From IMG/VR virus record IMGVR_UViG_3300009156_000067, positions 1 to 32,127 of that record: 32,127 bases of DNA; one strand, written 5' to 3'. The position numbers and the translations under genes were made by a program. The stretch is from a virus. Below the pieces are notes generated by a model. That model saw nothing but the letters and a program-made list of their open reading frames with translations, searched no databases and was not told where the DNA came from. Below, one piece after another: positions 1 through 32,127 of this stretch (positions are counted from its first letter, which is position 1; every line of letters begins with the position of its first letter).

Positions 1-2
1 CG

Positions 3-65
3 CCGGCGCCGGCCCCCGCCCGCAATGACCGCACCCCTCGGTCGGGAGGCCCGCCGCGATCATGA
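3..65 (+). CDS. C-terminal end of an HTH regulator (partial)
   Basis: This is the last 20 codons of a gene entering from the left edge, ending in NDRTPRSGGPPRS and a TGA that overlaps the integrase ATG (ATGA). The C-terminus of the XRE-type regulator at 31666-32055 is closely similar (NDRAPRAGGPPRS) and overlaps the next integrase start in the same way. The fragment is therefore inferred to be the tail of a related regulator translationally coupled to the integrase. About 12 of the last 20 residues match. The N-terminal part lies outside the window, so the HTH itself is not seen here. Confidence 0.6.
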   Translation, partial: PAPAPARNDRTPRSGGPPRS

Positions 66-1219
66 GTCAGCCCCCACCGCTCCCCCCCGGCATTAGTCAG
101 GACCCCGACGGGGCGTACCGCGTCCGGGTCATCTGTCGCCCGTTCCCGCCCCGCCGCAAACGGTTTCCCCGCGGGACGCCGATCGGGACCATGGTCCGGT
201 GGCGCGACACCCAACAGGCGGAGTTGCGGGTCATCCGGCGGAACACCGGGGCCGGCCAGCCCCAGGCCACCCGGGGGTCCCTGGCCGCCGACGTCGATCG
301 CTACCTCCGGGCCTGGACCTGTGACAATGCCGCCAGCCGGACCCAGCGGGCCCGCCATCTCGAGTATTGGGTGGGCGTGGTGGGGGGCCGGGACCGCCGG
401 AGCCTGACCCCGATCGAGATCCAGGAAATCCTGGAACGGTGGCGGACCACCGGCCTCCCGCTCTCCGCCCGCCAGGTAGAGCTCCGCGAGGGCGGCCGCC
501 GCGTCCGGGGGACCCCGCTCCCCCTCGCCTATGGGACCATGAAGAAGATCCGCCAGGCCCTCTATCAGGTGTATGCGGTCCTCGATCGCGGCCTGGGCCT
601 CCCGAATCCCGTCGCCGCCGTCCCCGACTATCCCACCCGCTACGACGATCCCCGGGCCCTCCCGGAGGGGTTCGTGGCGGAGGCCGTCCGCCACCTCCCG
701 CCGGCCGGCCTGGCCCGCCCGATCCTCCTGGTCCTCATGCTAGGCGTCCGGCCCTGCGAGCTCATGCGGGTCCAGCCGGGGGACTTCCAGGCCGGGGAGG
801 CCGCCCTGGTGATCCGGACCGCGAAGGGCGGCCCGAAGCGCCGACTCTGTCCCCTGCCCCCGATCGTGGTCCAGGCCCTCGAGGCCCTCGAGGCCGCGGG
901 CCGCCTGGGCGTCCCGTTTGAAATGGCGTGGGTGGGGCGGGTCTGGCACCGGGTCCACCGGGACGCCGCGGCCGCCCTGGGCATCCCCCCGCCCCCGTTC
1001 CGCCGGCCGTATGATCTCCGGCATACCATGGCCACGGAGGTCCTCGCCGCCACCGGCTCCGTCCATACGGCCCAGAAAATCCTGGGCCATTCGTCCGTCA
1101 GCCAGACCCAGCGCTATAGCCTGGCCGCGGGGGATCCCGCGATCCGGGCGGGCCTCGCCGCCGTGGCCCATACCGTCCCCAGCCCGGGGCCCCGGCTCGT
1201 CCGGGCCCCGGCCAAGTAA
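62..1219 (+). CDS. int: Phage tyrosine integrase
   Basis: Tyrosine recombinase of 385 aa that would integrate and excise the phage at the attachment site. The catalytic set is visible: R230 (GVRPCEL), K255 (RTAKGG), Y317-D-L-R320-H321, H343 (LGHSS) and nucleophile Y352 (QRYS). The first residue of the usual HxxR motif is Tyr here, a substitution seen in some family members. Residues about 15-50 form a basic arm-DNA-binding type N-terminal domain (KRFPRGT...RW), and 70-180 look like the SAM-like core-binding domain. The ATG overlaps the stop of the upstream regulator (ATGA), so expression is probably coupled to it. It heads a three-gene plus-strand operon ending in a terminator just before the att-like region. 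Length and motifs are typical, and the assignment is firm. Confidence 0.96.
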   Translation: MSQPPPLPPGISQDPDGAYRVRVICRPFPPRRKRFPRGTPIGTMVRWRDTQQAELRVIRRNTGAGQPQATRGSLAADVDRYLRAWTCDNAASRTQRARHLEYWVGVVGGRDRRSLTPIEIQEILERWRTTGLPLSARQVELREGGRRVRGTPLPLAYGTMKKIRQALYQVYAVLDRGLGLPNPVAAVPDYPTRYDDPRALPEGFVAEAVRHLPPAGLARPILLVLMLGVRPCELMRVQPGDFQAGEAALVIRTAKGGPKRRLCPLPPIVVQALEALEAAGRLGVPFEMAWVGRVWHRVHRDAAAALGIPPPPFRRPYDLRHTMATEVLAATGSVHTAQKILGHSSVSQTQRYSLAAGDPAIRAGLAAVAHTVPSPGPRLVRAPAK

Positions 1220-1233
1220 CGAAAGGTTCAGAG

Positions 1234-1704
1234 ATGCCCCAGCCCGATCCGTTGTCGTTTATCCGTGACCAGGTGGACCGCCTCGAGCGGGAACTGTCTG
1301 CTTGGCGGACCGTCCTCCAGGCCCTCACCCCCCCGACGCCCACCCTGGCGTCCGCCTATCTCCAGGAAATGCGGACGTCGTTTCCTGTGCCGCCGCGCCC
1401 CGAACGGCCGGGGCCCCGGGGGAAGGCCACCCCCGTCCGCGCCACCGCCGTCACCCCAAGCGGGAAACGGATCCGGAAACGCTTCCCGGCGGGGACGTCG
1501 CCGGACGCGATCGCGGCCTGGCGGAAACACGTCCAGGCGGGCCCCGCGAAACCCGCCGCCGCCCCCACGCGGAAGCCCGGCCGCCCACGGACCGCCACGC
1601 CCGCGGCCGCCACGCCCAAACGGAAGCGCGGCCGGCCCCGCAAGGTGACTGCCCCCCTCCCGATCTTCGCGGAGCCGGCCGCGGATCAGGGAGCGGAGGA
1701 CTAG
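1234..1704 (+). CDS. Arm-domain-like, twin AT-hook DNA-binding protein
   Basis: Protein of 156 aa starting 14 bp after int. Residues 9-30 are a probable coiled coil. Residues 67-100 resemble the arm-DNA-binding segment of the neighbouring integrase: KRFPAGT followed by AWR here, KRFPRGT followed by RWR in Int. Residues 113-119 (RKPGRPR) and 131-136 (KRGRPR) are two AT-hook motifs in a Pro/Ala-rich tail. A role as an accessory factor at the attachment site, such as a directionality or architectural protein, is inferred from this composition and position. No excisionase family could be recognised. It could instead be a nucleoid-like transcription factor. The resemblance to the Int N-terminus was seen by eye, not by a search. 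Confidence 0.7.
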   Translation: MPQPDPLSFIRDQVDRLERELSAWRTVLQALTPPTPTLASAYLQEMRTSFPVPPRPERPGPRGKATPVRATAVTPSGKRIRKRFPAGTSPDAIAAWRKHVQAGPAKPAAAPTRKPGRPRTATPAAATPKRKRGRPRKVTAPLPIFAEPAADQGAED

Positions 1705-2001
1705 GTGACGTCGATCGTCCAAGAGCTGTATACGGCCCTCAAAGCCGCGGGCGTAGACGAGGGCCTGGCGGTCCGGGCGGCCGGGGCCGTTCTGGGCCGG
1801 GAACGGGAGACCCCCGGCCATGAGCTCGTCACGGTCGATCATCTGCGGGCGGAGTTGGCGCCGGTGCGGGCGGCGATCGGGGTGACGGCCGCCGAGCTCC
1901 GGGCGGAGCTGGCCCAGGTGAAGGTGGAGATCATCCGGTGGAACGTGGGGACCCTGATCGCCCTGGCCGGGCTGGGAATCGCTGCCATGAAGTTACTCTA
2001 G
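1705..2001 (+). CDS. Coiled-coil protein with C-terminal membrane anchor (DUF1640-like)
   Basis: Protein of 98 aa starting with GTG directly after the TAG of the AT-hook gene, so translation is likely coupled. Residues about 44-78 form an amphipathic helix rich in Leu/Ala/Glu (AELRAELAQVKVEII), and residues 79-98 are one hydrophobic membrane segment ending in MKLL at the extreme C-terminus. This layout resembles small bacterial DUF1640-type proteins, whose role is poorly known. As the last gene of the integration operon it could be an inner-membrane protein expressed in the lysogen, for example for superinfection exclusion. That function is a guess; only the topology is seen. Confidence 0.7.
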   Translation: MTSIVQELYTALKAAGVDEGLAVRAAGAVLGRERETPGHELVTVDHLRAELAPVRAAIGVTAAELRAELAQVKVEIIRWNVGTLIALAGLGIAAMKLL

Positions 2002-2042
2002 CCAGACTCCCACACACACCGTGGCCCCGGGGGACGGGGCAG

Positions 2043-2070
2043 GGGGGCACCACCCTGGTGCCCCCTTTGT
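2043..2070 (+). terminator. Rho-independent terminator of the integrase operon
   Basis: A perfect 10-bp inverted repeat (GGGGGCACCA, loop CCC, TGGTGCCCCC) is followed on plus by TTTGTTTGTGT. It lies about 42 bp after the last gene of the int operon. The GGGGCACCA core recurs in the phased repeats downstream, so the region may serve both termination and protein binding. Confidence 0.8.
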
Positions 2071-2130: not shown

Positions 2131-2164
2131 GGGGCACCAGGAGGGGCACCAGGGGGGCACCAGG
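2131..2164 (+). repeat. Three phased GGGGCACCAGG repeats, putative integrase arm sites
   Basis: Three exact copies of the 11-mer GGGGCACCAGG start at 2131, 2143 and 2154, so centres are 12 and 11 bp apart, about one helical turn. Related copies occur in the terminator (2044-2052) and at 2384-2393 on the other side of the tRNA-like segment. Their position beside an att-like site and downstream of int suggests arm-type binding sites for the integrase or its AT-hook neighbour. The repeats are seen directly; the binding role is inferred. The rest of 2071-2278 shows no gene. Confidence 0.65.
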
Positions 2165-2278
2165 CCGGTTCCGTTGAACGTTTTTCCTAAGCTTTTTGAG
2201 GGCCGTTCTTCCACTTATGGTGCCCGGGCGAAAGTGAAAGTTCAGTGGAGACTGCCCGGTTTTGTTCGGGTTTTAGGG

Positions 2279-2325
2279 GTGTCCCCGCCGGGATTTGAAC
2301 CCGGGTTTTGGCCTTGAAAGGGCTG
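2279..2325 (-). other. tRNA-Glu-like 3' half, probable attP core
   Basis: On the minus strand this reads as the 3' half of a tRNA: anticodon stem-loop at 2309-2325 with loop CTTTCAA (anticodon TTC, Glu), a short variable region, a perfect T-arm at 2288-2304 (CCGGG, loop TTCAAAT, CCCGG), then CGGGGAC as the 3' acceptor strand. The matching 5' acceptor (GTCCCCG) and a normal D-arm are absent upstream, and only three inner pairs of the anticodon stem form. It therefore looks like a tRNA fragment rather than a functional gene. Such fragments are typical of phage attachment sites, because integration restores the host tRNA 3' end. Position downstream of int supports this. Alternatives are a degenerate tRNA or chance similarity. 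Confidence 0.55.
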
Positions 2326-2383: not shown

Positions 2384-2398
2384 GGGGCACCAGCCCCC
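2384..2398. terminator. Possible hairpin between att region and lysis genes
   Basis: GGGGC, loop ACCA, GCCCC forms a small hairpin followed on plus by CTTTC. It could stop read-through from either side, since the minus-strand late operon ends at 2506 and plus transcripts come from int. It also contains a further GGGGCACCAG motif. There is no real T-tract, so this is tentative. Elsewhere in 2326-2505 only G/C-rich inverted repeats, and no gene, are visible. Confidence 0.3.
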
Positions 2399-2700: not shown

Positions 2701-3482
2701 AGGGGATCTCCGTCGAGGGGGAGCGGGACCGGAACGGTCCACGCCGCGGGTTTCCAGCCGATCAGGGTCCCGTCCGGTTCGCACCGGCGGATACCAAATC
2801 CTTCCTCCGCCGTGGGCCCGTCGTTGAGCTGATAGAGAAACGCCGCCCGGGCCCCTTCCTTCAGCCAGAAGGCCCACTCCTGGGTGATGTACGCCGCCTG
2901 GTCCGCCTCCGTGACAAACCCCGCGCCGGTCCCGGTCTTATACCCGAACTCCGTCACCAGGTACGGCCGGCCGTCGCAGAGCTGCCGGAGGGCCACCACC
3001 TCGTCCTCCCGGGTCCGGAACCCCGGGTGGGACCAGTCGAAGGTCCCGTCCCCGTAGCGGTGGACGGAGATCCCCACCACGCCCGCCGGCCAGCCCTTGC
3101 CCCGGACCTGGTCGCACCACCGCAGCGAATCGAGATCGAGGTTCGAGATACAGGGGGCGACGATCGGGATCCCCAGGAGGGCCCCCAGGGCGGCCGCCGC
3201 GGCCAGACTGTCCCGATACTCCCGGGGCGGGGTGGTGAAGTCTAATTCGTTCCCCCACTCCACCCAGCGCCCCGGCGGGACGGCCTCGAGCCGATCGAGG
3301 TCATAGAGGATCGTGAGGGGCCGGAGCCCGGCCCCCTCCACGTCCGCAATCATGGTCTGCATGGTGGGGACGTCCACGGCCTGGGCGTCCAGGCGACACC
3401 AGCCGAACCCGAACCCGCGGACCGCCTCGAGGTCCGCCGCCGGAATCCGGGCGTCAAAGTGCGTCTGGAGGCCGTAGTGCAT
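2697..3482 (-). CDS. Glycoside-hydrolase-like (TIM-barrel) protein, endolysin candidate
   Basis: Protein of 261 aa with the pattern of a clan GH-A glycosidase: beta/alpha repeats, an Asn-Glu pair at N78-E79 (EWGNELD) as presumed acid/base, and E178 (LVTEFGYKT) as presumed nucleophile. There is no signal peptide. The gene precedes the holin-like gene with an ATGA overlap and lies 11 bp after the 951-aa tail protein. No amidase, lysozyme or peptidase was recognised elsewhere in the window, so this is the most likely cell-wall enzyme. A tail-borne polysaccharide depolymerase is the main alternative. Substrate cannot be read from the sequence. Confidence 0.65.
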   Translation of the reverse strand: MHYGLQTHFDARIPAADLEAVRGFGFGWCRLDAQAVDVPTMQTMIADVEGAGLRPLTILYDLDRLEAVPPGRWVEWGNELDFTTPPREYRDSLAAAAALGALLGIPIVAPCISNLDLDSLRWCDQVRGKGWPAGVVGISVHRYGDGTFDWSHPGFRTREDEVVALRQLCDGRPYLVTEFGYKTGTGAGFVTEADQAAYITQEWAFWLKEGARAAFLYQLNDGPTAEEGFGIRRCEPDGTLIGWKPAAWTVPVPLPLDGDPL

Positions 3483-3493
3483 CAGGAGCTCCG

Positions 3494-6349
3494 TCAGGCG
3501 GGCTGGTTCGTGTTCCCGCTCAGCCGCGGGTCGGGATTAAAGACCTTCGCCAGGCGAGCGGATCGGCCCATATCCCGGGAGAATTCAAAGGCCACCATGG
3601 TCCGCTGGATCCCCCACGTATGGGTGATCCGTTCCGCGTCCCCGATATCGTGGCCGCCGTCCTCGTCCGTCCCGCCGGTCGTATGGGCCTGGGTGTACTG
3701 TTCCGGCTCATCCGGGGGCCGCTGATAGAGGATCCCGGTCAGGTGGCGGGACTTGTCCCCGGTGGCCCACCAATCGGCCTCCCCGCGGGGATCGCTCGAG
3801 GTGTGGTTGTAGTCCGGCCAGCCCGTGATCCGCTCCGGGGTGAAGTGACAATAGACCAGCGCGTCCGATCCGAACGTCTGCCGGAGGGTCTGGGCGATCC
3901 GGAGGTGGGCGTCCCCGCTCCACGCGAAGTAGAGCCGGTTGCTATGCGGGCCCAGGGGGCTATAGCCGTGGGGGCCCGGCGCCAGGACGTGGCCCGTGGG
4001 CGTCCCCTCCGCCGACTCCCGGAGCCGCCGGATCTTCCGCATGAGGACATGGTGGGCCCGCTCCGCCGCGGTCTCCACCCCATGGGGGCGGGGATCCCAC
4101 GCCACCACGTCCACCGCCACCGGGGCCCCGGTCCCGCCTGGCAGGTTGCCGGTGGTCGAGCCGGGGGCCGTCTTGTCCCCGAAGCCGCTGTTAATCTGCG
4201 GGAATTCCCAGCCCGTGGCCACGATCCGGATCAGGTCCGTGAACTGACTCAGCCAATTCTTGATAAAGAGGTGGGCGTCATCCTCCGTATAGCCCGGGTC
4301 CCCGGGGAGCCCGTCCGTAATGCCGAACAGGACCACCACGCACCCGTCCGCCTGGGTCTCCGTGATCAGGTCCCGGAGGCCCTGGGGGTTCCGCCGGAAA
4401 TCAAATTGCGGCTCCGATCCGTACGCCCCCCAGGCCGCGAACGGGATATGGGTGAGCCCGGCCGCCTTGAGGGTCATGCGATAGGCGGCCCGTTTCTCCG
4501 CGGACCACCCGGGATACATGAACCCCCAGGTGTAGTTGGGGACGCCCAGAAAGGCGCCGTGGACCCGCCCCGCGAGCTCGATCGAGGGTTTACTCCCGGG
4601 AGGGGGGAGGACCGTCGCCGTCGATCCCGGCTCCGCCAGGAACACGGACCAGTCGTCCAGGCGGTCCCCGTTCACCCGGACCGCCCCGCCGCCGCCGTCC
4701 TCCGCCCAGAGATAGCCCCCGGTCCCCCGGATCGCGACCTCGCCGTCCGGGTCCACCTCGAGCGTGAAACACTCCCAGGACCGCCCGGCACTATCCCGCC
4801 CGATCGCCGTCCGGTCCGCCATCAGGAGCCCGGTATTCTGATCGGCCGACAAGTACATGCCGTTATCGGCCCGGAGCGCCACCGTCCCGTCCGCCTGGGG
4901 GACCGGGTGGAAGGACTCCCAGATATCAGGGATCCCCGTCCGGGTGGCGTTCACCTCCCGGCCGCCGCCGTTCTCCGCGCAGAACAGGAACCCGCTCTGG
5001 GTTCGAATCGCGAGCGTTTTGGGCCCCGCCGGCGGGATTGGCTCCGGGGGGACCGTGGCCGGCTGGACCGTCACGGCCCGCCGGGCCCCGGTCTGGTGGG
5101 TCCCCGCGTCGTTCACCCCGCGGGCGGCGATCAGCCAGACCCCCGGCTGGGTCCACCGGAACGAGTGATCGGGATCGGCGGGATCGTTACTCGCCACCAC
5201 CAGCCAGGGCGTCCCGGGCCCGTCTGGCCGGGTCAGCCACTCGATCCGTGCGAGGGGCCCGGAGCCGGTCTCGAGGCCGTAGACGGCCTTGCAGGGCTCG
5301 CCGCCGATCGTGACCGTCGTGGGGGTATAGGACGTGATCGTAATCTTGGGCGGTTTCATCGGTGGAGGCTCCGGATCGGGCGGTTTGGGGGGGATCGGCG
5401 TGACCGGGACGGGGACGCGGGTCCGGGGCGTGTCGGCCGGGACGTCCAGAATCCGGAGGACGGGCCCGATCGGCGCCACGTTCGCAAACGCCGCGATCCG
5501 GAAGAACGATCCGGCCGGGTCCGCCCAGACGTCGAAGGCGTCCCCCTGCGAGCGGAGCTCGAGACAGATCGCCCGATCATCGACCAGCCGCCCGTCCGGG
5601 GTGAGGGGCCGCCCGTAGACCCAGCCGGCCCCCGTGGGGTCATACGTGCCGCTCCAGGCCCACCGCGTCCCGTCCGGGGTCTTCACCACGGCCACCAGGC
5701 CCTCGGTCGCCCAGGGGGCCAGCGTGACGTCCCGCGGGGTCCCGTCCGGGAGCTCGAGGGCGGCCGGGCCGTAGTAGCCGAACCCGATCCACCCGTCCGC
5801 CGAGGTCCGCCAGAGGTTCGAGCCCGCCGGCCGGCCCCGCGTCCAGAGGTGGGACCCCGTGGGGAGGTCGAACCCGTGCCAGCGGTCCGGATTGCGATCG
5901 GCCACCACGATCGTCCGGCCGGCCGTGGGCCCGAGGCCGCCGTACTCGCCCGCGATCACCTGGCCGTTCATCGTCAGCCGCCAGCCGTCCACCAGGACCG
6001 ACGCCCAGCCGCCGGCGCCAGCCTCGCAGGTATTCCCCGCCGCCCGGCCCTCCGGGACCGCCACCTGGTCCGGGGTCCAGGCCGGCGCCCGGGCCCGCCA
6101 GAGCCGCGCCGTCCCGGGGCCCGTGGGTTGCCAGTAGACGATCGTGGCGGCGTCCAGCCAGCGGTAGGCGCCACACCGGCCGCCGGCCGGGAGCGGGAGG
6201 GGCCGGAGCCCGTCCGTGAGCGTCCAGACCGATCCCACCTCATCCCCGCAGACTACCGCCCCGTCCGGGCTGAACCGGGGATACCAGACATCCCCCCGGA
6301 CCTCGAGGTGAACCACGCCGGGGAGCGTTCGCCGCCGGCGGGCCGTCAT
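3494..6349 (-). CDS. Large multidomain tail protein with glycosidase-like C-terminus
   Basis: Protein of 951 aa. Residues about 1-300 show beta-propeller-like repeats (FSPDG, PDGTRWAW). Residues 316-335 are a Pro-rich linker. About 336-430 resembles an Ig-like domain. About 443-575 has three Gly/Asn-rich repeats like a fascin or beta-trefoil carbohydrate-binding module (FLFCAENGGG, MYLSADQN, YLWAEDGGGG). About 590-951 resembles a TIM-barrel glycosidase, with E715 (TGWEFPQ) as a candidate catalytic acid. The basic start MTARRRRTLP is not a signal peptide. The ATG overlaps the previous stop (ATGA). A tail spike or receptor-binding role that binds and perhaps cuts surface glycans is inferred from domains and location. 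Domain limits are by eye. Confidence 0.6.
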   Translation of the reverse strand: MTARRRRTLPGVVHLEVRGDVWYPRFSPDGAVVCGDEVGSVWTLTDGLRPLPLPAGGRCGAYRWLDAATIVYWQPTGPGTARLWRARAPAWTPDQVAVPEGRAAGNTCEAGAGGWASVLVDGWRLTMNGQVIAGEYGGLGPTAGRTIVVADRNPDRWHGFDLPTGSHLWTRGRPAGSNLWRTSADGWIGFGYYGPAALELPDGTPRDVTLAPWATEGLVAVVKTPDGTRWAWSGTYDPTGAGWVYGRPLTPDGRLVDDRAICLELRSQGDAFDVWADPAGSFFRIAAFANVAPIGPVLRILDVPADTPRTRVPVPVTPIPPKPPDPEPPPMKPPKITITSYTPTTVTIGGEPCKAVYGLETGSGPLARIEWLTRPDGPGTPWLVVASNDPADPDHSFRWTQPGVWLIAARGVNDAGTHQTGARRAVTVQPATVPPEPIPPAGPKTLAIRTQSGFLFCAENGGGREVNATRTGIPDIWESFHPVPQADGTVALRADNGMYLSADQNTGLLMADRTAIGRDSAGRSWECFTLEVDPDGEVAIRGTGGYLWAEDGGGGAVRVNGDRLDDWSVFLAEPGSTATVLPPPGSKPSIELAGRVHGAFLGVPNYTWGFMYPGWSAEKRAAYRMTLKAAGLTHIPFAAWGAYGSEPQFDFRRNPQGLRDLITETQADGCVVVLFGITDGLPGDPGYTEDDAHLFIKNWLSQFTDLIRIVATGWEFPQINSGFGDKTAPGSTTGNLPGGTGAPVAVDVVAWDPRPHGVETAAERAHHVLMRKIRRLRESAEGTPTGHVLAPGPHGYSPLGPHSNRLYFAWSGDAHLRIAQTLRQTFGSDALVYCHFTPERITGWPDYNHTSSDPRGEADWWATGDKSRHLTGILYQRPPDEPEQYTQAHTTGGTDEDGGHDIGDAERITHTWGIQRTMVAFEFSRDMGRSARLAKVFNPDPRLSGNTNQPA

Positions 6350-30474: not shown

Positions 30475-30511
30475 AGATCCCCGGAAGATCTTTGGTACAG
30501 GTACAGGTGTA

Positions 30512-30601
30512 CGCGTGACAAACGCGTGACTCACGCGCGTGACAAACCGCGTGACACCCCCACGGTCACGGCCGTGACAAACCGCGTGACTCACGCGTGA
30601 C
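30512..30601. repeat. Helically phased CGCGTGAC array, candidate origin or operator
   Basis: CGCGTGAC occurs exactly at 30512, 30523, 30536, 30548, 30583 and 30594, with a degenerate copy (GCCGTGAC) at 30571. Spacings are 11, 13, 12, 23, 12 and 11 bp, near one or two helical turns. A perfect 14-bp palindrome GTCACGGCCGTGAC sits at 30565-30578, and TCACGCGTGA and TCACGCGCGTGA palindromes also occur. The array lies immediately downstream of the replication-type winged-helix gene. It is read as iterons of a replication origin, or as an operator for the neighbouring HTH proteins. No reading frame across it has coding character. Confidence 0.65.
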
Positions 30602-30604
30602 ATG

Positions 30605-30946
30605 CTACGCCCCCGTCCGGTGGCGGGCCTGCCGCTCCCGCCACTGTTGCCGGAGCTCGAGGACCTCTGCCCGGGACTTATTCCACTGGAGATAATCGTG
30701 GACGATCCACCCGTCCACGGCCCGGGTCCACAGGCCGGCCCGCTCGAGCTCGTCCAGGTGGGCCCGGGTGATCTTGATCCCCGGGAGCAGGCCCGAGACC
30801 GCCTCCGCCGGCAGCCGGCCGTCCGTCAGGAATTCCTGACAGTAGACCAGGCCCGCGAGCCACAAGCGGACCCCCCGATCGGAGAGGCTGAGCATCTTAG
30901 GGTGACGTAAGGCGCCCAGCGCCACCACCGCATAGCGGATCGCCAT
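30605..30946 (-). CDS. Replication-initiation-type winged-helix protein
   Basis: Protein of 113 aa resembling the N-terminal domain of phage replication initiators or replisome organisers. It shows LSLSDRGVRLWLAGLVYCQEF, then DGRLPAEAV, GLW and a G-W-I-V-H-D-Y-L-Q-W-N motif, ending in a charged helix (SRAEVLELRQQWRERQ). Such domains bind origin DNA. It stands alone here, without a helicase-loading domain, primase or polymerase, so replication would rely on host enzymes. The array just beyond its stop is a natural target. Overall a good but not certain match. Confidence 0.65.
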   Translation of the reverse strand: MAIRYAVVALGALRHPKMLSLSDRGVRLWLAGLVYCQEFLTDGRLPAEAVSGLLPGIKITRAHLDELERAGLWTRAVDGWIVHDYLQWNKSRAEVLELRQQWRERQARHRTGA

Positions 30947-30949
30947 GGG

Positions 30950-31210
30950 TCACCCCGCCTTGCGCACCGGCCGCCGGGGGGCGGTCAGCCCTAAGCGCCG
31001 GACGAGGTCCGCCCCCACCCCGTCAATATCGCGGGCCACCTCCGCCCGGGGCGTCCGGGGCCGGCCGATATTCGGCAGACACCGCGGGCCCCAGGTCCCG
31101 GCCAGCCGCTTGTTCCGGATCGTCCGGGATGAGATCCCGTAGATCTCCGCCAGATCGCCGTCGGTCAGCAGATCGGGGTAATCCTCAAGTTTTCGTCCGC
31201 CGGCGCCCAT
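30950..31210 (-). CDS. Small HTH protein (excisionase/MerR-like)
   Basis: Protein of 86 aa starting MGAGGRKLEDYPDLLTDGD, with GGAGG five bases before the ATG. The HTH (DLAEIYGISSRTIRNKRLAGTW) resembles those of excisionases and other small DNA binders. It follows the XRE gene with a 26-bp overlap and precedes the replication gene by 3 bp. It could be the missing excisionase, although it is far from int on the map, or an early regulator. An upstream start (31345) is less likely because of the strong ribosome site. Confidence 0.65.
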   Translation of the reverse strand: MGAGGRKLEDYPDLLTDGDLAEIYGISSRTIRNKRLAGTWGPRCLPNIGRPRTPRAEVARDIDGVGADLVRRLGLTAPRRPVRKAG

Positions 31211-31463
31211 GGCCGCCTCCGTTGTCCGGGAAACAATCCGGGAACAGATCATCGAGGGACGCCTCGAGGATCCCGCTGAGTTGCACTGCGATATGGAGCT
31301 TGGGCGGACTCTTGCCCTGTTCCAATTCGCTGTAGCGGGGGACACTCATCCCTAATTGCTGGGCCACCTGGGCCTGGGTGAGGTCTCGCACCCGGCGCCA
31401 GGCCCGGAGACCTTTGAGGACCGGGGGCGGGTGATCACGTGCGGACGCCGCCGTATGCACCAT
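31185..31463 (-). CDS. XRE-type transcriptional regulator, first gene of early operon
   Basis: Protein of 92 aa with a Cro/CI-type HTH (LTQAQVAQQLGMSVPRYSELEQGKSPP) at about 28-54 and a short C-terminal part (ASLDDLFPDCF). The start at 31463 is chosen because a good minus-strand promoter has its -10 at 31567-31572, so starts at or above 31571 cannot be transcribed from it. The plus regulator at 31666 is divergent. A cro-like or repressor role at the divergent region is likely. Confidence 0.75.
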   Translation of the reverse strand: MVHTAASARDHPPPVLKGLRAWRRVRDLTQAQVAQQLGMSVPRYSELEQGKSPPKLHIAVQLSGILEASLDDLFPDCFPDNGGGHGRRRTKT

Positions 31464-31665: not shown

Positions 31666-32055
31666 ATGTATACTGCTCACTTCGTGGCTCCCCCGCATTT
31701 GTCGTGGCACGCTGGCCACGTCGTCCGAGCCCTCCGGGAGCGCCAGCAGTGGACCCAGGTTACGTTAGGCGAACGGGCCGGGACCAAACGGGCCCCGATC
31801 TCCCCACAAACGATCCTCCGGCTGGAACACACCGGGACCGCGTCCCCGCGGGTCCAGGCCGGGGTGGCCCGCGCCCTGGACCTCACCTGGGCGGAGATCC
31901 TCGAGGCCGTCCCCATGGCCCTGTCCCCGGCCTGGGGGCAGATCATCGCGTCGTTGCGGATCTTCGAGATGAACCTCCGGGCGGAGCTGGCCCCGCCGGC
32001 GCCCGCCCAGAAAAACGACCGCGCCCCGCGGGCGGGAGGCCCGCCGCGATCATGA
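31666..32055 (+). CDS. XRE-type regulator coupled to integrase
   Basis: Protein of 129 aa with a Cro/CI-like HTH at about 20-72 (LRERQQWTQVTLGERAG, SPQTILRLEHTGTASP). The ATG lacks a clear Shine-Dalgarno site and TATACT at 31669-31674 looks like a -10, so the message may be short-leadered and start further in, for example at GTG 31684. The C-terminus is hydrophilic. Its TGA overlaps the next ATG (ATGA), which begins an integrase. It probably controls lysogeny together with int expression. The same arrangement, with a related C-terminus, stands at the left edge of the window. Confidence 0.7.
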   Translation: MYTAHFVAPPHLSWHAGHVVRALRERQQWTQVTLGERAGTKRAPISPQTILRLEHTGTASPRVQAGVARALDLTWAEILEAVPMALSPAWGQIIASLRIFEMNLRAELAPPAPAQKNDRAPRAGGPPRS

Positions 32056-32127
32056 GTGAGCCCCCTCCGCTCCCCCCCGGCATCAGTCAGGACCCCGACG
32101 GGGCGTACCGCGTCCGGGTCATCTGTC
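31991..32127 (+). repeat. Right-hand copy of the 137-bp unit-end similarity (left copy 1-137)
   Basis: Positions 31991-32127 align without gaps to 1-137 at an offset of 31,990 bp. The integrase part (76 bp) differs at 3 sites. The regulator tail (61 bp) differs at about 15. The boundary therefore repeats, but it is not an exact overlap. It implies a repeat unit near 32.0 kb and homologous junctions on both sides. Confidence 0.85.
32052..32127 (+). CDS. int: Start of a second integrase (partial)
   Basis: The first 25 codons of an integrase nearly identical to the one at 62: it starts MSEPPPLPPGISQDPDG where the first copy has MSQPPP, and the remaining visible residues match. It is truncated by the window end. 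Its ATG overlaps the regulator stop. It is a second, slightly different copy, or the same gene in a variant of a circular genome. Confidence 0.75.
   Translation, partial: MSEPPPLPPGISQDPDGAYRVRVIC

Follow-up and report, generated by a model that had tools for sequence, protein, structure and literature searches.

Just downstream of the tyrosine integrase gene (int) of this viral genome lies a reading frame for a small protein, P0001 (156 aa; 1234–1704, plus strand), which is predicted to combine a coiled coil, a domain resembling the N-terminal arm of the integrase (Int) and two AT-hooks. The presence of a stand-alone arm-like domain together with two AT-hooks beside int is supported by the sequence. 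As to function, the preferred reading, held at a probability of roughly 40 %, is that P0001 would serve the phage's own integration complex as an accessory protein that binds DNA. The evidence counted for this role comprises the arm profile with its controls, the superposed secondary structure, the clustered copies of the word GGGGCACCA and a pair of T5 tracts, and also the GGGGACCA flanks in relatives, the gene spacing and a terminator-like hairpin.

Proteins that bend the DNA or crowd Int at its arm sites steer both reactions of tyrosine integrases, integration and excision, and most of the known ones are either winged-helix proteins or host factors. If the reading is true, the reuse of Int's recognition module by a phage protein would represent a different solution, and competition for the arm sites would be directly testable. 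The window (the whole stretch analysed, 32,127 nucleotides) supplies concrete test DNA in the form of a tRNA core with mapped putative arm-type repeats, and the relatives offer both a slightly differing repeat and a slightly differing arm domain.

Layout of the int gene cluster and of P0001

Int (385 aa; 62–1219, plus strand) matches PF00589 (E 2e-8) and phrog_1 (E 1e-24) and carries its arm domain at residues ~10–57 with the motif RKRFPRGTPIGTMVRWR. Full lambda Int chains align over residues 3–368 of the Int model, with an rmsd of 21 that results from differing domain placement. PF14657 (Arm-DNA-bind_4) has no match anywhere in the window, Int included. The P0001 frame follows 14 nt past the int stop with AAAGG upstream, and a GTG-start frame begins directly after it at 1705. 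The latter, the last gene of the cluster (1705–2001, plus strand), encodes a CCDC90-like coiled-coil/TM protein of 98 aa (PF07798, E 9.5e-4, below the cut-off) in which the coiled coil is accompanied by a hydrophobic C-terminal stretch. Behind it, the hairpin scan found a terminator-like hairpin (2041–2067, plus strand) formed by an inverted GGGGCACCA pair (2044 plus, 2056 minus); terminator-like sites in 1–2700 numbered two, against 1.6 in shuffles. No sigma-70-like promoter was found by a scan of 1–2700, and an Rfam search of the window gave nothing above the gathering score. The P0001 gene probably belongs to the int operon.

The two ends of the window (1–137 and 31990–32127) overlap with 91 % identity over 134 columns, int start included. 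This probably reflects a circular genome that was opened within int, with a strain variant where the ends meet. On this circular reading a Cro/CI-type helix-turn-helix (HTH) gene (31666–32055, plus strand; PF13560, E 3.9e-5, below the cut-off) runs into int, since its stop overlaps the copy of the int start at the window end (ATGA).

Within P0001, a helix is modelled at residues 6–31 (1249–1326, plus strand) and shows the heptads of a coiled coil, with hydrophobic residues at all eight a/d positions of residues 7–31. The arm-like strand-strand-helix of the AlphaFold model occupies residues 68–102 (1435–1539, plus strand). Two AT-hooks follow, RKPGRPRT at residues 113–120 (1570–1593, plus strand; GRPR at 116) and KRKRGRPRK at residues 129–137 (1618–1644, plus strand; GRPR at 133). 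Both fit the definition given in a section of PMC11354804, a GRP core with basic residues on its flanks. No family in Pfam, PHROG or NCBIfam matches P0001; in particular, neither a recombinase domain nor a winged-helix or HTH_17 match was obtained from these collections, and the model contains no HTH. A sequence search of the PDB returned three chains, all irrelevant.

Resemblance to integrase arm domains

The pairwise likeness between P0001 and Int is weak (BLASTP E 0.004 across 22 residues). Shuffled versions of P0001 equalled the real score in 49 of 2000 cases against whole Int and in 19 of 2000 against Int residues 1–70, and the reversed protein even outscores the real one against whole Int (59 versus 56). 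These values, like the lack of a family match and of any homologue, would suit a convergent arm likeness, in which case P0001 would be a basic protein, rich in proline and partly disordered, that plays no part at attP. Such a convergence is judged distinctly unlikely, because the profile score described below lies far above that of shuffled sequences, motif-fixed ones included, and because the predicted secondary structure matches the Int arm.

As a yardstick, viral contigs were fetched by means of the motif written as a DNA pattern, its spacing taken from P0001 and Int. Among the 28 stretches returned, integrase-like reading frames were present in 21 and chance motif-bearing frames in six, and the last (L050) gave no motif frame; the arms of the integrase family obtained in this way have the form [RK]xFPxxTPxxxMxxWR. 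Since the fetching pattern came from the P0001/Int spacing, the motif does not count as independent evidence, and its invariance in the integrase alignment (A2) exists by construction, the set having been fetched by the motif, and was left unused. A profile comparison of A2 with the arm alignment A3 was set aside as circular, since A3 contains integrases. Int and P0001 are the two places of the window where the pattern F-P-x-[GDEN]-T-x4-[MILV]-x2-W-[RQK] occurs, and a background of 580,274 aa (6284 frames, 81 loci) has no instance of it; these counts are to be read with the fact that the pattern was partly picked after both proteins had been seen.

A hidden Markov model was built from 18 non-redundant integrase arms of other viral contigs, the sequences of the window being left out. 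P0001 scores 22.9 bits with this arm HMM and Int 49.2 bits; taken as a stop-to-stop frame among the 7951 frames of window and loci, P0001 reaches 22.3 bits (E 3e-5), and removal of the two integrases closest to Int leaves 21.7 bits (E 4.5e-5). The highest score among 5000 shuffles of P0001 was 11.8 bits (a score was reported for 3957), and chance motif-bearing frames score up to 17.6 bits. When the six motif residues were held fixed, one of 5000 shuffles (4997 gave scores) reached the observed value, and since such shuffles so rarely do so, the arm signal in P0001 extends beyond the motif. The match spans P0001 residues 73–111, which correspond to the second half of the arm and leave its first strand unmatched. 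The cores of the two arm segments are identical at just 30 of 54 DNA positions, so that they do not stem from a recent duplication. P0001 thus appears, with good confidence, to share sequence-profile similarity with integrase arms. The preliminary description had claimed that P0001 repeats the arm pattern of the integrase and adds two AT-hooks and a coiled coil; this is confirmed, and the profile comparison it had suggested came out positive, at 22.9 bits and far above shuffles.

The AlphaFold model of P0001, computed without an alignment, contains strands at residues 68–73 and 79–84 and a helix at 90–102 besides the helix at 6–31, with pLDDT block means of 90–92 for residues 71–100. For Int, an AF2 model with 15 alignment rows gave strands at 11–13, 19–25 and 28–35 and a helix at 41–63. 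If the shared FP is aligned (F84 of P0001 on F35 of Int, offset 49), the two strands of P0001 and the beginning of its helix fall on their Int equivalents, and strand 1 of the Int arm has no counterpart in P0001. Three strands and one helix form the arm-binding domain in the IntTn916 subgroup, according to a part of PMC8138268. The models therefore suggest that P0001 carries at best a reduced version of this domain, which may not fold or bind like the Int arm because the first strand is absent. Of the structural relation between P0001 and arm domains that had been put forward, two strands and a helix at matching positions stand, in a model made without an alignment, and the first strand is missing. 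Foldseek with P0001 yielded only weak, unrelated strand-strand-helix matches, none with E <= 0.001 in PDB or BFVD, and the best hit of VIA-align had a Z of 3.0, with ubiquitin-like and helical chains; integrase arms are absent among the matches listed by both programs, which excludes nothing.

The putative attachment site and its candidate binding sequences

Downstream of the cluster lies a tRNA-Glu(UUC)-like 3' half (2280–2323, minus strand), the putative attP core. ARAGORN reports a tRNA at 2278–2360 and types it as SeC, which is taken as a misreading of the tRNA half. The same half is found in L077 and L078, the loci of the closest integrase relatives (36 and 34 % identical to Int, on the same contigs as L072 and L062, respectively), and a tRNA-Glu(ttc) follows int in L049. 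The tRNA half at 2280–2323 with its GGGGCACCA flanks is likely attP, as judged from the sequence.

The window has six exact copies of GGGGCACCA, every one of them located at 2044–2392 around the tRNA half, and none of 100 shuffles reached that number. No other 9-mer of the window, its own one-base shift aside, has at least five copies confined to 400 bp. Three of them are direct repeats (2131–2162, plus strand; starts 2131, 2143 and 2154) spaced 12 and 11 bp apart. An eight-base copy, GGGCACCA, is found at 2218–2225 (minus strand) and a further GGGGCACCA on the far side of the core at 2384–2392 (plus strand), both by word search; all of these are putative arm-type sites. The phased repeats that had been pointed out earlier hold up in this form, as helically spaced repeats beside a tRNA 3' half that resemble arm-type sites. 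In the relatives, GGGGACCA flanks the tRNA half with seven of seven copies in L078 (13.1-kb locus) and four of five in L077 (9.7-kb locus); both words are absent from the more distant L080 and L049. Because the words flank the tRNA half in the window, L077 and L078, GGGG(C)ACCA is the probable arm-type site of Int and of the L077 and L078 integrases. P0001 may read the same word as Int, since the strand end RKRFPxGT is common to both.

Between the arm-type repeats and the tRNA core sits an AT-rich patch that contains a pair of T5 tracts at a distance of 12 bp (2181–2197, plus strand; tracts at 2181 and 2193), a candidate target of the AT-hooks. No other two of the ten such tracts of the window lie within 20 bp of each other, and the second most AT-rich 100-bp stretch of the window starts at 2177. 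Such a pair arose in 2 of 300 whole-window simulations and in 100 of 2000 with local composition, so that it is not very rare locally.

The position of the repeats also bears on another function. A coiled coil joined to AT-hooks is a layout of small silencer-like proteins, and P0001, which has this layout, might be a local regulator or nucleoid-type protein that binds the GGGGCACCA sites or AT-rich DNA and so acts on the int operon or on nearby promoters, with only an indirect effect on recombination. One GGGGCACCA pair does form the terminator-like hairpin of the cluster, and AT-hooks often accompany major-groove DNA-binding domains, as a section of PMC11354804 states, a pairing that would fit a regulator as well. 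However, the six exact copies are all placed downstream of the cluster around the tRNA half, with none upstream, and the promoter scan of 1–2700 was empty; a regulatory role is therefore held to be fairly unlikely.

Possible roles in recombination and distribution among relatives

If P0001 is an accessory protein of the integration complex, as preferred here, it would dimerise via the coiled coil, and with its arm-like domain it would occupy the GGGGCACCA sites or share them with Int; the AT-hooks might grip the T-tract patch 2181–2197 between arm sites and core. The DNA would be bent or bridged by P0001, much as by IHF or Xis elsewhere, and P0001 would either shape the integrative complex or cap it by competition. 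A cofactor or brake is preferred over a separately switched excisionase because P0001 would be made together with Int. As for the control of recombination direction proposed in the preliminary description, probable co-transcription with int speaks for a cofactor no less than for a directionality factor. More doubtful is the idea that an arm module split off from Int was rebuilt as a dimeric AT-hook protein for the same arm sites, where it would tune recombination by competition or bridging.

IHF is an architectural protein of recombination, and HMGA with its AT-hooks occurs in retroviral preintegration complexes. By analogy, the AT-hooks of P0001 could bend DNA beside a recombination core, but P0001 differs from both in being phage-encoded next to int and in bearing an integrase-type arm domain. 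It is like the arm-binding domain of tyrosine integrases (IntTn916, lambda) in its strand-strand-helix and in an FPxGTxxxx[MI]xxWR motif spaced as in the neighbouring Int. In integrases this domain is N-terminal to the core-binding and catalytic domains, whereas the arm of P0001 is unfused to a recombinase, lacks the first strand and is located mid-protein between coiled coil and AT-hooks. No stand-alone arm-domain and AT-hook protein at attP is described in the literature searched, which was partly judged by titles. Should P0001 be a directionality or architectural factor, which is somewhat doubtful, it would be of a kind undescribed in that literature.

With Xis, Apl and RdfS, P0001 shares small size, basic character, a DNA-binding type and a place near int, and like the repeats treated in part of PMC7498355 its candidate direct repeats are about one turn apart; it is unlike them in having no winged helix or HTH and in being probably transcribed with int. 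As such a factor, P0001 would bind the one-turn repeats, displace or redirect Int and drive excision in place of a winged-helix Xis. The spacing of the three direct repeats (12 and 11 bp) agrees with this proposal, known directionality factors binding direct repeats about one turn apart (part of PMC7498355), and so does the gene upstream of int, which encodes a clear HTH_17 protein in L080 (directly upstream, E 1e-11) and a Cro/CI-type HTH protein in the window. The expected co-expression with Int from the same cluster and the lack of an HTH speak against it, and there is another candidate for Xis. On the opposite strand L080 possesses, besides its Xis-like gene, a further HTH_17 gene (E 4e-6), and the window holds just a weak member of this second kind (30953–31270, minus strand; phrog_66 E 8.7e-4, HTH_17 E 0.019), which could itself be Xis. 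An Xis like that of L080 may be missing from the window, and P0001 could then be its substitute, with the 30953–31270 gene as a rival. In sum an excisionase function of P0001 is considered unlikely. The statement of the preliminary description that no classic excisionase lies next to int is correct for the direct neighbours; once the ends are overlapped, however, the weak match to phrog_66 (excisionase and regulator) at 30953–31270 comes into view.

The integrase set comprises 22 distinct contigs (the 21 found by the motif DNA pattern and L080), 12 of which extend 1.1 kb or more past the int gene. In none of these 12 was a second arm-profile frame (at least 30 aa, E < 0.5) detected, and the other ten likewise have none in the DNA covered. 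The pairing of arm domain and AT-hooks next to other integrases, for which the preliminary description had suggested a search, was thus not recovered (0 of 12 related contigs, none more than 36 % identical over Int). The missing conservation beside int that it had named as counter-evidence was thereby observed in part, in a set that contains no close relative of the phage. P0001 appears to be a singleton so far among the sequences searched, and since no homologue was found, conservation gives its function no support. Searches of viral contigs with the single P0001 sequence (137 stretches) and with the arm alignment A3 (26 stretches) gave no confirmed relative, and phages and plasmids no match. 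A search of viral contigs with RKRFPxGT codons returned 39 stretches, 38 with the peptide and none of them in an integrase-like frame, which was taken as chance; a combined arm and AT-hook pattern hit one viral contig, where the L080 match is an integrase start with GRPR out of frame. Matches in 5 of 398 genomes of the phylum of G001 (E 3e-5 to 7e-4, each with 2–4 internal stops) and a weak second P0001-like match in the window (5406–5642, one stop) were dropped as low complexity.

Int itself, as a single sequence, found no match in viral contigs and one catalytic fragment in genome contigs. Ten phage and 30 plasmid records matched Int, all of them partially and with less than 60 % identity. 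What the genomes of the G001 phylum returned were generic Xer-like enzymes, both with Int (1 of 50 at E 1e-10) and with the integrase alignment A2 (32 of 398 at E 1e-25).

Some further genes near these integrases may be mentioned. In L074 a frame of 68 aa (3370–3573) begins right at the stop of int and has a match to phrog_11545, a family of unknown function (E 1.8e-5). L062 (3474–3929) and L077 (7444–7878) each encode, near the integrase, a Cro/CI-type HTH joined to a C-terminal half that matches phrog_66, possibly a repressor-excisionase fusion. At the other end of the window, four copies of CGCGTGACA (30512, 30536, 30548 and 30594) are embedded in GTGAC-type repeats at 30490–30620, a candidate iteron-like origin that adjoins a replication-initiation-like gene (30605–30946; phrog_2447, E 5e-21).
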